From: Bdellovibrionales bacterium | GTDB lineage: Bacteria > Bdellovibrionota > UBA1018 | Reading direction: 5' to 3' | DNA: 64,000 bases | Assembly (NCBI GenBank): GCA_016786465.1 | Contig: JAEUWC010000030.1 | Span: 1 to 64,000 of the forward strand | In this document: in pieces, positions 36,123-50,162 of the stretch | Layout: every line of letters begins with the position of its first letter | Position numbering within the stretch: the stretch's first letter is position 1 | Position numbers and translations under genes: made by a program | The notes under the pieces: model-generated | Told to the model about the DNA's origin: nothing | What the model saw: the letters and a program-made list of their open reading frames with translations, nothing else | Database searches by the model: none

Positions 36123-37034
36123 GTGCCGTCCGTCCTGACTTCTAGAATTCGCCTAGTGATGGTGGAACCAAAAGGTCCACAGAATCTAGGCGCAGTCGCG
36201 CGTCTTTGCGAAAACTTTGGAATCGAAGACTGGGTGATCGTTCGCCCGCGTTTGGATCTAACGGACCCAGCAAATCTTGAACAGGCTGAAAAATTCGCGA
36301 CCGGAAAGTCGAAGCGAAAGCTAGCGACCCTTCAGGTGGTCGACGATCTTCGGGCGGCTACAGAAGACTGCGAAATCAGCATCGCGTTTTGCGGCCGAAA
36401 GACGGGAAAGAAAAGCCCGACCCAGGTGAAGATCGGTGATCTGACTCGTGCGGTTTTGGCCCAAAAAAGCGGAAAGGCCGCACTGGTTTTTGGGTCTGAA
36501 CGCTATGGTCTTTCGGTAAATGATGTATCGCTTTGTAGCCGAACCGTTTGCCTTTCGACGGAAGCGGACTTTCCTTCGATGAACCTGGGGCATTCGATTG
36601 CGGCGGTTCTTTCACGATTTCATCAAGACGCGACGGATTCGCTTCATTTGGCTTCGAAATCTTCCGTCGCGGTTGTTGGACCTGGCGAATCTGCTGTTTC
36701 GCAGGCTGATTATCGGGCGATGTTGGATCACGGAAAAAAGACCCTGTTACGGCTTGGGTACACAAAGGCTGGGAACCCGGATCGTTTGCTAGCGACCTTT
36801 CGGCAGGTCTTTGATCGAGCGCAGTTGCGAGCAAACGAAGTTCGGGCGTTTCGATCAGTATTCGCAAGAATCGGGCACCAGGAATTTCCCGAAGGGAAAG
36901 GGAATGTGCGGCCATCGAGCGAAGCGACCGGGCACGAGGAATTTCCCGAAGGGAAAGGGAATGTGCGGCCATCGAGCGAAGCGATCGCGCGAGAGGAATT
37001 CCCACGAAGTGGGAAGGGAATTCGCGCGCTATAA
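36123..37034 (+). CDS. TrmJ-like SPOUT tRNA/rRNA methyltransferase with repeat-derived tail
   Basis: This SpoU-family 2'-O-methyltransferase has motif 1 (EPKGPQNLGAVARLCENFG), motif 2 (ALVFGSERYGLS) and motif 3 (SMNLGHSIAAVL), as in TrmJ, which methylates position 32 of tRNA. The GTG start at 36123 is 4 nt after the previous stop. The catalytic body should end near residue 250 (RSVFARIG). The last ~53 residues are encoded by a 57-bp tandem repeat (36873-37024) and read GHQEFPEGKGNVRPSSEAT, then a near copy. That tail is unlikely to be part of the ancestral enzyme. Confidence 0.85.
   Translation: MPSVLTSRIRLVMVEPKGPQNLGAVARLCENFGIEDWVIVRPRLDLTDPANLEQAEKFATGKSKRKLATLQVVDDLRAATEDCEISIAFCGRKTGKKSPTQVKIGDLTRAVLAQKSGKAALVFGSERYGLSVNDVSLCSRTVCLSTEADFPSMNLGHSIAAVLSRFHQDATDSLHLASKSSVAVVGPGESAVSQADYRAMLDHGKKTLLRLGYTKAGNPDRLLATFRQVFDRAQLRANEVRAFRSVFARIGHQEFPEGKGNVRPSSEATGHEEFPEGKGNVRPSSEAIAREEFPRSGKGIRAL
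36873..37024 (+). repeat. 57-bp tandem repeat, two full copies and a partial third
   Basis: Copies at 36873-36929 and 36930-36986 differ by only a few bases; a diverged third spans 36987 to about 37024. Each carries a hairpin with a GAA loop: TTTCCC-GAA-GGGAAA in copies 1 and 2, TTCCCAC-GAA-GTGGGAA in copy 3. It lies inside the 3' end of the trmJ reading frame and supplies its stop codon region. Confidence 0.85.
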
Positions 37035-37038
37035 AGAA

Positions 37039-37076
37039 AGAGGGCCCCGAAGATCTGGATGACCTTGGAGCCCTCT
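37039..37076. terminator. Candidate bidirectional terminator
   Basis: AGAGGGC (37039-37045) pairs with GCCCTCT (37070-37076), and an inner AAG-A-TC/GA-C-CTT extends the stem imperfectly. It lies between the convergent trmJ and the small zinc-site gene. No T-run follows, so the call is tentative. Confidence 0.4.
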
Positions 37077-37191
37077 GAGGAGTGGTGGGTACAGCGCTTT
37101 TGCGCAAGAACAAGAACGGAACCCCGATTCCGTCAGACATGCGTTAGCTTCGCCCGAAGGCTGGGCATCACGCCGTCGTAGTCCTTACTCG

Positions 37192-37500
37192 TTACGCAAC
37201 TTTTCTGAGACCTGTCGACTTGGCTTTGAAAGCCATGTAGTGGTCCCATTTCTTTTCAAAATCTGGAACTTGGCGTCCGTGCTTATTGATCAAGCCGAAC
37301 TTGAACTGGTCGTAGTGTTCGACGCAGAAATCGAAGCGATCCGACTTCCCTTTGCATCCTTCACCACGGCACATTCCTGCCGGAACTTCTTTTTCAGCCT
37401 TGCCGCCCATTGGTTTCGGAGCCGCTGGCTTCGCTGCCTGCGCGGGAGCTGCTGCTGCCGCCGGAGCCTGTTTCTTTTCTGCACCTGTATTGTTGCCCAT
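37192..37500 (-). CDS. Small Ala-rich protein with a putative zinc site
   Basis: This 102-residue protein has an Ala/Pro/Lys-rich N-terminus (about residues 8-40) and a C-terminal part with CRGEGCKGKSDRFDFCVEHYDQF. There, C-x4-C and C-x2-H could bind zinc. It ends in a basic tail. The ATG at 37500 has a strong GAGGAGG site. No signal peptide. Function unknown; the site and charge suggest nucleic-acid or ribosome binding (inference). It is preceded by an A/T-rich gap (37501-37632) that probably holds its promoter. Confidence 0.65.
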   Translation of the reverse strand: MGNNTGAEKKQAPAAAAAPAQAAKPAAPKPMGGKAEKEVPAGMCRGEGCKGKSDRFDFCVEHYDQFKFGLINKHGRQVPDFEKKWDHYMAFKAKSTGLRKVA

Positions 37501-44219: not shown

Positions 44220-44725
44220 AGCCTGTTGCGCGACCTCGAGCCCCTGGGTCCAAGATTCTTTCGCCAGACGAATTGGCACAGGAACTGAAGAAGCTGAAAC
44301 AAAGTTCGGATTCATCCGAAGTCGTGTTCACAAACGGGTGCTTCGATATTTTGCATCCGGGGCATGTGACGTATTTGAACCAAGCGCGTGAAGAAGGTTC
44401 CCATCTAGTGGTAGCGCTGAATTCAGATGAATCAGTCCGAAAGCAAAAGGGCCCTAGTCGTCCCGTGAATTCGTTAGAAGATCGACAAACGGTCATGGCG
44501 GGACTTGAATGCGTGGATTTTGTGACTTTTTTTGCAGAAGACACGCCGCTTGAATTGATCCAGAAATTGCACCCCGATGTGGTCGTCAAAGGCGGCGACT
44601 GGAAGATCGATCAAATTGTCGGCGCCAAGGAAGTCATGGCCTGGGGTGGGCGAGCAAAATCGCTAGGATTCGTGGACGGCAAAAGCACGACGCGAATCAT
44701 CGAAAAAGCTTCTAAAAATCACTGA
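44216..44725 (+). CDS. RfaE2/HldE C-domain type adenylyltransferase
   Basis: This cytidylyltransferase-fold protein has 169 residues. It matches the ADP-heptose synthase domain that forms ADP-D-glycero-beta-D-manno-heptose for the LPS core. [17 protein letters not shown] contains the nucleotide-binding HPGH (47-50), followed by VVKGGDW and STTRII. It lacks the kinase domain of HldE, so the kinase must be elsewhere. TTG start with GGAG upstream. It overlaps the convergent lipoprotein gene by 7 nt. Confidence 0.88.
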
Positions 44726-46131
44726 CAGTATAGCTTGTCTTTCAAAAGCTGCATGTACAGGTCGACGACAACCAAGCTGCTATAAGGCTGATCTTGCATC
44801 CAGCCTTGCAAGGTGCTGAGCACGACGTAACCCGACATCGCGCCTGCAACTTGAGCAATCGAGCAGTTCGGTAGCGGATTCTGAAGCTTACACAGGCCTT
44901 CTTTTTCAAAGGTCTGGAAAAGCGCGGTTGCTTCACCCGCGTTCTTGAATCCTTTTTCGTTCAGATCGTTGCCTTCGATCGCGGCGTAGAAGCCCATGGC
45001 TGCTCCGGACTTGGTAAAAGTGCGGTAGCGCATATTACAGGTTTCCGCGGCGCCGCGCATGCAGGTGCCGTTGGCGACCATTTGTCGAAGAATCGACATT
45101 GCTCCAGCCAGGGTCGACTGTCCGGTTGCGTGCGTGAAGCCGCGGCCAGAAAGAACGTTGTACCCTTTGCGTGATCCCGCGTTTGGCCCTGCGAAGAAAC
45201 GGACGCGGCAAACGCCATCGTCTGGAGTCATCGCCAATACTTGTGATGGGTCATACAAAGGTTGGTCGGTGACCGCTCCCGGGACCGGAGGCGCAGTCGG
45301 CGTCGGTGATGGCGTCACGGTCACAGTCGGTGACGGAGACGGAGTCTGCGATGGTGTAGGTGACGGTGTTGGCGATGGCGTCACGGTCACAGTCGGTGAC
45401 GGAGACGGAGTTTGCGAAGGTGTAGGTGACAGTGTTGGCGATGGCGTCACGGTCACAGTCGGTGACGGAGACGGAGTCTGCGATGGTGTAGGTGACGGTG
45501 TTGGCGATGGCGTTACCGTTACAGTCACAGTCGGAGACGGCGAAGGAGTTACGGTGACCGTCACTGTCGGAGACGGCGAAGGAGTTACGGTGACCGTCAC
45601 TGTCGGAATCGGGCTTGGACTTGGGCTTGCGGTTGGAGTGATGGTAATCGTTGGCATCGGACTTGGATTTGGGGATGCCGTCACAGTTGGGCTTGGGGTT
45701 ACAGTCGGAGTAACGGTAACCATTGGAGAAGGTGACGCCGTCACAGTGACCGTTGGACTTGGATCCGGAAGTACAGATGATGTGGGGTTCGGATTCATCG
45801 GCCAGCTTTTTGGAAGCGAGCCGCTTGGGCTTTGTTCAAAGCCACCTTTATGTGCCCCAACGTTCAAGAAGATGACCTGATTGTCGCGGAAGTAATCTGC
45901 ACGCTCGGAATCGGTGAACTCGCACTCGCGCGCGATATTGTTCATGACTTCTTCGTCGATCTTGGCCGTGGTCCAGTCATCACCGCGAGCCGAACGTTCC
46001 AGCAAAGGATTCATTCGGTCTTCGAAGCACTTCTTCTTTTCATCCAGCGAAGTCTTTTGCCCGCAAGCCGAAGCCAGAAGCAAAGGGATGAATGCAGAAA
46101 GCAGCTGTACTGATTTGGATCGACCCAACAT
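44719..46131 (-). CDS. TP-repeat lipoprotein A
   Basis: This 470-residue lipoprotein has a signal peptide with lipobox LASAC (Cys about residue 23), a charged helical part with a [11 protein letters not shown] segment, then a long stalk of [12 protein letters not shown] repeats (about residues 120-280). A Cys-containing C-terminal domain follows, with [33 protein letters not shown] and [11 protein letters not shown]. It is a paralogue of the gene at 48765, with matching domains at both ends. It is probably on the outer membrane, with the stalk projecting. Convergent with the rfaE2-type gene. Confidence 0.85.
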
Positions 46132-48231: not shown

Positions 48232-48768
48232 CTACTTCAGCGCCGCTATATTCGCGAGGCCATCGTTGAAATCCTTCATGATGGCGTTCTCAAAATTGAA
48301 AACAATCCAGAAGACTTTGCCCAGGAAGGGATTGTCCCCCGACATGGTCCAGGTGGTTTTGCAAACCGACGGCCCTGTAGCAACTAAGTCAAACTGCCCC
48401 ATGGACTTTGAATCCCAGCCTTCAAACGAAAGTTCGTACTGAAGCATAGTCCCTTGGCGAAAATCAGTGATTCGTGCCGAACCATTTCCCGTTTTTTTGC
48501 TTTCCCAGGACAGCTTCGCGCCAGGACCCGTGATTTGTGCCGAATCCAGCTTGTAACGGGTTTCAGCATCATACTTTTTCCAGGGCGACCAGGATTCCCA
48601 CTTGTCCAACTGTGCAACTAGGTCAAAGACCTGGTCGCAGGACTTTGGCAATTCCCGGGTTACTGGAATCGAATAATGAGTTGGAACACGCGAAGCTTTA
48701 AACGCAAGCGCGGCGAGCCCTAGCAAAAGCAAACCTAGAAGACCCAGTAGAACTTTCTTCATCGTCAT
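48232..48768 (-). CDS. SRPBCC-fold membrane-anchored protein
   Basis: This 178-residue protein has an N-terminal hydrophobic anchor or signal ([20 protein letters not shown]), then an SRPBCC/START-like ligand-binding domain ([35 protein letters not shown], a typical polyketide-cyclase start). It probably binds a hydrophobic ligand at the periplasmic face. ATGA overlap with lipoprotein B upstream shows translational coupling, and the PLD-like gene follows by 61 nt. The ligand is not predictable. Confidence 0.8.
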
Positions 48769-50162
48769 TTACAGAACTTCGTTTTCTGAAACTGGGCCAA
48801 AAGACTGTTTGCGTCTTGTTGACTGATCAGCACTTGGTCTTGAAGCCAGCCATTGGTGTCGCTGACCACAACCCATCCGGACTGAGGTGCAAAGACTTGA
48901 ACCACTTTGCAATTCGCTAAAGGGGCCATTTTGCATAGGCCGTCTTTCACCAAAAGATCTGCTAAATCAGAAGCGCCGACAGGATCCGAAAACCCCATTG
49001 CCGAAAGATCGTTGTTTCCAACTGCGGCGTAGAAACCTGCGTAAGTTCCTGAACGTGCTGTTGAACGGAAACGCATGCTACAAGTTTCGGGCTTGCGCTG
49101 CGACGTGCAGCGGGAACGGATTTCGTCGATGGCATCTTTCAAGGTTTTTTCAGATCGGGTGACCAGTGCCTTACGATTTGCGATCGGCAGGTAGCCTTCC
49201 CACTTCGATCCGGGTCCGATGTAACGGACGCGGCAGTAGTTGTCTGCTGGCGCGCCGGCAAGAACAGTTTTTTCGTCGACTACTGGAAAATCTGGGAACG
49301 CAGGAGCCACAGTCGCCGTAGGTGACGGAGTCACGGTTGGAGTAACCGTCGGAGTCGGCGTCGCTGTAGGTGATGGCGTCACGGTTGGGGTGACCGTCGG
49401 AGTCGGCGTCGCCGTAGGTGATGGCGTTGCGGTCGGTGTCACAGTGGGTGACGGCGTTGCGGTCGGTGTCACAGTGGGTGACGGCGTCGCGGTTGGAGTA
49501 ACCGTCGGAGTCGGCGTCGCTGTAGGTGATGGCGTCACGGTTGGGCTCGCTGTCGGAGTGACCGTTGGTGTCGAAGTCGGCGTCGCTGTAGGTGATGGCG
49601 TCACGGTTGTGGTCGCGGTCGGCGTCGCTGTAGGTGATGGCGTCACGGTTGGGCTCACTGTCGGAGTGACCGTTGGAGTCGAAGTCGGTGTCGCTGTAGG
49701 AGACGGTGTCACTGTAGGCGTCGCCGTTGGAGTCGAAGTCGGGGTTACAGTCGGAGTAACCGTTGGCGTCGCAGTGGGCGATGGCGTCACTGTGGGTGTC
49801 CCCGTTGGAGTAATCGAAGGAGTCGGGGTGACCGTCGGCCACGTCGATGGGCGTCCACTTGGAAGCCCCGTCGGATCGGGTGATGCCTGGGATACCGGTG
49901 GTGCTTTGACCTCTAGCGGTCTTGCAAAAAGTCGAGCTTTCTCGTCATCCGTCATGCCGCATTCGTCAGCAAATCGATTCAATTGCTCTTGATTCAGTCT
50001 TGAGAATGCCCACGAATCACCTTGGTTGGCTCGGTCGACCAAAGGCTTGATTCTTTCGTCATAGCAGGCCTTCTTTTCTTGAAAGGTATCTGCACCGCAT
50101 GAAGCGAGGATTAGAGCCAGGGACGCGCTACTCGAGGCGACGACGAAGTTTCTTCTCAGCAT
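48765..50162 (-). CDS. TP-repeat lipoprotein B
   Basis: This 465-residue lipoprotein has lipobox LASC (Cys about residue 22), a helical head ([17 protein letters not shown], matching [17 protein letters not shown] in lipoprotein A), then a long [10 protein letters not shown] stalk (about residues 110-280). Its C-terminal domain has [34 protein letters not shown] and [11 protein letters not shown], closely like lipoprotein A. The two paralogues bracket the SRPBCC and PLD-like genes. The stalk repeats differ in sequence, so they expanded separately. It heads the four-gene cluster. Confidence 0.85.

Follow-up and report, generated by a model that had tools for sequence, protein, structure and literature searches.

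A nested-hairpin tandem repeat with paired arm changes encodes the C-terminal tail of a TrmJ-like methyltransferase in a Bdellovibrionales bacterium

We found that the C-terminal tail of a TrmJ-like protein in a Bdellovibrionales bacterium is encoded by a tandem array of nested hairpins, two copies of which differ from each other by matched changes in the arms of both stems and have identical loops. We read the array as a hairpin minisatellite that is confined to a single locus between convergent genes and was captured by trmJ, with a tail that is probably inert, and we give this reading about an even chance. The window analyzed here is the whole stretch of 64,000 nucleotides that carries the gene, and the features discussed are collected in Table 1.

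Tandem Repeats Finder reported a 57-bp unit in 2.6 copies at 36872-37021 (score 233), in agreement with a sequence-only reading that had placed a 57-bp tandem repeat in the trmJ tail. Three nested hairpins are present in 36872-37028, as two near-identical 57-bp units and a diverged third that lacks a spacer, a 17-nt spacer being found 3' of copies 1 and 2 and none after copy 3. Each unit follows the same plan of an outer stem, a purine-rich internal loop (GAGGAA, or CAGGAA in copy 1, opposite GGGAAT), an inner stem and a GAA loop. The inner stems quoted in the earlier reading proved exact to the letter (TTTCCC-GAA-GGGAAA at 36885-36899 and 36942-36956, and TTCCCAC-GAA-GTGGGAA at 36999-37015). 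Copy 3 has an extra pair in its inner stem, which lengthens its hairpin by 2 nt. Copies 1 and 2 are identical except at 2 of the 57 positions, where both changes alter a residue; with so few differences, one duplication looks recent. As a head-to-tail repeat of units of 10-100 bp, the array is a minisatellite in the plain sense of the term. Hairpins of the C-GAA-G type are highly stable in DNA, and perfect triloop hairpins of at least 6 bp are not rare, with 33 in the 64-kb window. An assembly or sequencing artefact of the draft genome appears highly improbable; the genome is in 30 contigs, but an array of about 160 bp with a diverged third copy should assemble easily, and this one lies inside a 352-kb contig. 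The top-scoring tandem repeats of the window lie elsewhere, in ORFs at 44719-46131 (-) and 48765-50162 (-), which encode proteins of 470 and 465 aa. The two resemble each other by eye; both start like lipoproteins and carry long repeat linkers of Pro, Thr, Ser and Val.

Table 1. Positions of the hairpin array, its host gene and the neighboring features in the window
Feature	Position	Strand	Description
TrmJ-like gene	36123..37034	+	303-aa ORF, GTG start, TAA stop; SpoU/SPOUT methyltransferase core at residues 7-252
C-terminal tail, residues 251-303	36873..37031	+	encoded by the repeats; 13 relatives show no convincing counterpart
Hairpin copy 1	36872..36911		outer GCAC/GTGC; loop CAGGAA / GGGAAT; inner TTTCCC-GAA-GGGAAA (36885-36899)
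Spacer 1	36912..36928		CCATCGAGCGAAGCGAC
Hairpin copy 2	36929..36968		outer GCAC (36932-36935)/GTGC (36963-36966); loop GAGGAA / GGGAAT; inner TTTCCC-GAA-GGGAAA (36942-36956)
Spacer 2	36969..36985		one base different from spacer 1 (16/17 identical)
Hairpin copy 3, without spacer	36986..37028		outer CGCGCGA/TCGCGCG (7 bp); internal loop GAGGAA / GGGAAT; inner TTCCCAC-GAA-GTGGGAA (36999-37015)
Putative intrinsic terminator of the convergent gene	37039..37076	-	two 10-nt arms with 90% complementarity, followed by TTCTTTAT (minus strand)
Convergent ORF	37192..37500	-	102 aa; no Pfam or NCBIfam match

The predicted assignment of the 303-aa host protein to the SpoU/SPOUT methyltransferases is safe, because its Pfam profile match to the SpoU methylase family PF00588 scores 80.2 bits against a cut-off of 29.7. 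TrmJ is the nearest name that its sequence suggests, since the NCBIfam profile TIGR00050 (TrmJ/YjtD) covers residues 7-252 with 113.4 bits, below the curated cut-off of 167.15. The best PDB relatives are TrmJ structures, whose alignment spans residues 7-254. The statement of the earlier reading that the in-frame repeat adds about 53 residues beyond the enzyme core holds, as the repeat encodes residues 251-303 and the two alignments end at residues 252 (TIGR00050) and 254 (PDB). A search at E 0.001 in 39 other genomes near the source genome, several of them incomplete, recovered a TrmJ-like gene in 13.

The tail comprises the last 53 codons of the gene and reads, copy by copy, GHQEFPEGKGNVRPSSEAT / GHEEFPEGKGNVRPSSEAI / AREEFPRSGKGIRAL. 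In a MAFFT alignment of the 13 relatives, none of which belongs to the genus of the source genome, the proteins terminate roughly 5 to 30 residues past the core, and none of the 13 has a segment that aligns convincingly with the tail repeats; the short PEGA of the longest relative tail (L016) is set opposite PEGK. The PDB TrmJ relatives likewise show no convincing counterpart, the tail being beyond the structurally aligned core. Aligning relatives to find where the core ends had been proposed in the earlier reading, which named conservation of tail residues in distant TrmJ proteins as evidence against itself; no convincing conservation of this kind was found in the 13 relatives or in the PDB TrmJ proteins. 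A peptide search of 367 other genomes of the phylum with the tail gave two weak matches (E 2.5e-4 and 0.009), both in frames with stops and crossed by longer open frames. Excerpts of the literature on TrmJ C-terminal extensions and on palindromic tandem repeats with compensatory change describe no such TrmJ tail, which is a weak negative. From these comparisons, the tail looks lineage-specific and a conserved tail peptide is disfavoured. The missing counterpart in all 13 relatives and the position of the tail outside the PDB TrmJ core support the minisatellite reading. That reading is weakened in turn by the fact that a tail-less state at the same site was seen in no genome, with none from the same genus among those compared.

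Paired change extends beyond the inner stem that the earlier reading had described. The outer stem covaries too, as GCAC/GTGC in copy 2 and GCGA/TCGC in copy 3 occupy the same four pair positions, and three more outer positions are mismatched in copy 2 and paired in copy 3; the loops are unchanged between these copies. Copies 2 and 3 differ at 11 of the 28 arm positions and at none of the 15 loop positions (Fisher P 0.0077); the arm count includes one inserted base per inner arm and rests on a single hand-set inner-arm alignment. In chance simulations designed after the pattern was seen, the inner-arm match had a P value of 0.0047 under random placement of equal numbers of changes, two double-compensated outer pairs had 0.026 when starting from copy 2 and 0.086 when starting from copy 3, and all 7 outer pairs were reached from copy 2 with P 0.0001. 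A less favourable test, in which at least 4 of the 7 outer pairs (the number in copy 2) had to be kept when starting from copy 3, gave P 0.138. Arm pairing is moderately beyond chance. Moreover, the two outer arms of copy 3 are perfect reverse complements of each other over 7 nt, unlike those of copy 2, as expected if one arm had been corrected by the other.

Fixed loops with changing arms are also what is expected of a selected and recognized hairpin, and in this respect they count against the minisatellite reading. The hairpins could be a selected nucleic-acid element, such as an mRNA 3'-end stabilizer or a set of protein-binding hairpins, in which the GAA and purine loops are recognized and the arms are free to change if they stay paired; we regard this as rather unlikely. 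In its favor are the paired changes in both stems with constant loops and the folding of copy 3, which is far more stable than that of shuffled sequences on both strands (RNA, z -4.2 plus and -4.5 minus; DNA, z -4.3 plus and -5.0 minus). Against it, the 57-nt units of copies 1 and 2 with their spacers fold no better than shuffles (copy 1, z +0.19 as RNA and -0.14 as DNA; copy 2, z -0.24, RNA fold alone). The nested form is the minimum-energy DNA fold of copy 1, whose RNA minimum differs, and it is the RNA minimum of copy 2. In the RNA fold of the whole array with its flanks (z -1.8), the inner arms of copies 1 and 2 pair with each other. Further points against a selected element are that ribosomes traverse the array to 37034, that our searches found no second locus, and that a terminator scan found no plus-strand terminator at the array.

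The sequence-only reading had attributed the covarying stem to selection on RNA or DNA structure rather than on the peptide. Only 32 of 300,000 random synonymous recodings of the copy 3 peptide retained all 14 pairs; therefore, the peptide sequence does not account for the pairing. This part of the claim stands, and it also favors a selected element. The exclusion of the peptide was too strong, as some peptide constraint is possible. When copies 2 and 3 are aligned, 8 residues are identical, with EEFP, GKG and R kept. Nine aligned codons changed, 5 of them synonymously (TTT/TTC, CCC/CCA, AAA/AAG, GGG/GGA and CGG/CGC) and 4 not; two further codons are indels. In simulations of structure-keeping changes from copy 2, run with two ways of changing the inner arm, a peptide as similar to that of copy 2 as the real copy 3 peptide arose with P 0.02 or 0.04 when judged by alignment score and with P 0.07 or 0.14 when judged by identity. 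Peptides alike beyond structure-keeping change (P 0.02-0.14) count against the minisatellite reading. We rejected one further candidate proof that conservation acts on DNA alone. The block AAGGGAAT is identical in copies 2 and 3 and is read in different frames, which gives K G N in one and K G I in the other; because purine codons are forgiving, this frame shift alone does not separate DNA from peptide. The structure signal is the stronger one, and a weak peptide signal remains.

A functional peptide, in which repeats of GHEEFPEGKGNVRPSSEA extend the methyltransferase, for example for tRNA binding, would accord with the open reading frame, the 19-residue period, the motifs kept in copies 2 and 3, the synonymous changes and the simulated likeness. 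It is nevertheless improbable in view of the residue-altering changes (both changes between copies 1 and 2 and, from copy 2 to copy 3, four of the nine changed codons, besides two indel codons), the lack of a convincing counterpart in the 13 relatives or the PDB relatives, and the two weak matches in stop-containing frames among the 367 other genomes of the phylum.

The paired arm changes noted in the earlier reading are confirmed, with a pairing that is moderately beyond chance. Selection on the structure is not proven, because template switching also makes arm changes in pairs (PMC8794818, in excerpt) and copies 1 and 2 fold like shuffles.

The earlier reading had suggested looking for the unit elsewhere. 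In the source genome, which is 97% complete, the three tandem copies were the only ones recovered by DNA search, by pattern or by covariance model, the last having scored 150 of 192 first-look candidates. A fourth model match there (E 1.16) was rejected, as it has no nested fold and is at chance level. The spacer motif TCGAGCGAAGCGA occurs with at most 1 mismatch at 9 other genomic places, against 7 for its reversed control, and no comparable hairpin was seen by eye in their 80-nt flanks. None of 54 other genomes of the order and none of 367 phylum genomes contains the exact pattern, and one exact-pattern scan of genome contigs returned 14 chance-like stretches, none with an inner stem by eye. 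The covariance model matched 4 of the 367 phylum genomes (E 0.008-0.047), a chance-level result for a set of this size. About 18 genomes are expected by chance at the E limit of 0.05 without filters, but strict filters were used and at most 17 candidates were scored in each genome listed, so both the 4 and the 18 are uncertain. The model was built on a MAFFT alignment in which the GAA loop of copy 3 is one column off, and it covers the inner helix in part. Among plasmids and phages, no DNA match to the array was found. In 22 stretches from a viral scan, the longest inner stem had 5 pairs (G-T allowed), occurred in two homologous contigs and had 3 of its 5 pairs forced by the pattern. A looser viral scan gave at least 120 stretches, of which 80 were turned into loci and 82 matches were screened there; no nested form was seen by eye in the best 40 of these 82. 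Two narrower viral scans gave one locus each, and these and three other loci had no covariance-model match. The sensitivity of all these searches is limited, and families with different loop letters would escape them.

Three observations on viral sequences are recorded in their own right. A 6-bp hairpin with a GAA loop lies near the motif in L085, L096, L099, L105 and L129, a viral contig carries several GAGCGAAGCGA palindromes within a short stretch (L112:405-495), and at least 120 viral stretches have CGAGCGAAGCGA followed by GGAAT within 30 nt, a count without a frequency control.

These searches bear on the possibility that the array belongs, as a lone or degenerated copy, to a dispersed palindromic family (REP, RPE or MITE) whose remaining members sit in unsampled relatives. 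Its size, palindromic form and location at a 3' end next to a convergent gene resemble the intragenic REPs described in the excerpted text of PMC3733652, and variable arms around fixed loops are expected of family members. We consider such membership distinctly improbable, given a single locus in a nearly complete genome, the absence of the exact pattern from the order and phylum genomes, and the lack of a GTAG or CGTC tag in either orientation.

Comparison with known systems, as far as excerpts of the cited papers describe them, gave partial likenesses. Rickettsia palindromic elements (RPEs; PMC10969869) are also palindromic, about 150 bp in total and in frame within protein genes, to which they add tens of residues, but they form families over many unrelated genes, whereas the array was found at one locus; it thus shares the in-frame, palindromic nature of RPEs and not their presence in several unrelated genes. 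Tagged REPs (GTAG/CGTC; PMC3733652) are short hairpins often found 3' of genes, between convergent genes and at times in coding regions. In contrast to these, the array has no tag, is not multi-copy and has a nested two-stem form with an internal loop. None of GTAG, CTAC, CGTC and GACG occurs in 36872-37034, and the missing tag and low copy number (three tandem copies) rule out a tagged REP. The pyrimidine arm, purine arm and further purine block resembling the purine arm recall the intrastrand triplex motifs TM, BoxC and PIT (PMC4666352). The ITxF rule of that work wants stems of at least 6, whereas the array has at most 4 triplets, in copies 1 and 2 only. A search for ITxF classes I and II (three stems of at least 6 nt, loops of 1-6 nt) at 36860-37100 on both strands had 0 hits at stem 6 or 5, which rules out such a triplex; class II with 4 triplets gave three hits on the plus strand, two of them in copies 1 and 2. 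CRISPR repeats (PMC1896005) also consist of repeated palindromes, whose groups differ by compensatory base changes, but they need distinct spacers, and the array has two spacers that differ at 1 of 17 bases and lies inside a coding frame; a CRISPR array is ruled out. Quasipalindrome or template-switch mutation (PMC8794818, PMC8604942) changes the two arms of an inverted repeat in concert, in coding DNA as well. It is a mutation mechanism rather than an element, and alone it does not explain the unchanged internal loop.

With the convergent ORF as its neighbor, the array sits at the gap between two convergent genes. The 102-aa product of this ORF has an Ala/Pro/Lys-rich N-terminus followed by CRGEGC...DFCVEH. 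The minus-strand hairpin and TTCTTTAT at 37076-37039 probably end this ORF; the hairpin is absent from the output of a consensus terminator scan, probably owing to the 18 nt that separate its arms. Three Rfam matches in 36500-37400 are all under the gathering score and outside the array, which rules out a known Rfam RNA there. A 254-aa ORF antisense to trmJ (36376-37140, -) crosses the repeats and is probably spurious, because it has no Pfam match and 5 of 6 frames are open over the array.

Under the minisatellite reading, a small quasi-palindrome in or next to the gap between the convergent genes would have been tandemly duplicated by replication slippage, helped by the hairpins. Because none of the three forward frames has a stop and the 57-bp period is a multiple of three, trmJ reads through the array. 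The likeliest source of the paired arm changes would be template switching from one arm to the other, and the folded form may also have been under some constraint. In excerpts of earlier work, template switching creates or repairs stems and produces compensatory changes (PMC8794818), and it alters coding inverted repeats in yeast (PMC8604942). The main difficulty for this reading is that a template switch over a whole hairpin should erase the mismatched internal loop, which is unchanged in copy 3, so separate events or a constraint on the loop are needed. The 53-residue tail would be a tolerated by-product without a specific job, comparable to the residues contributed by intragenic REPs or Rickettsia palindromic elements. 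Palindromic repeats are known between convergent genes and inside genes, C-terminus included, and the residues that they add at protein termini may leave function unaffected (PMC3733652, in excerpt).

A further possibility, which we hold to be quite unlikely, is a structured element at this single locus with a fixed GAA loop and a fixed purine internal loop, maintained through duplication by true compensatory change. It would be translated and at the same time act on the trmJ transcript or locus, and the C-terminus would be written jointly by hairpin and coding constraint. Covarying hairpin arms usually count as proof of a selected structure, but a tandem array within a gene can acquire the same pattern from replication. 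The array is thus a small case that sets DNA structure, peptide and mutation mechanism against each other. If the hairpins are selected, a constraint on nucleic acid would write the end of a protein; if they are not, the tail would be an ordinary one born of a repeat.
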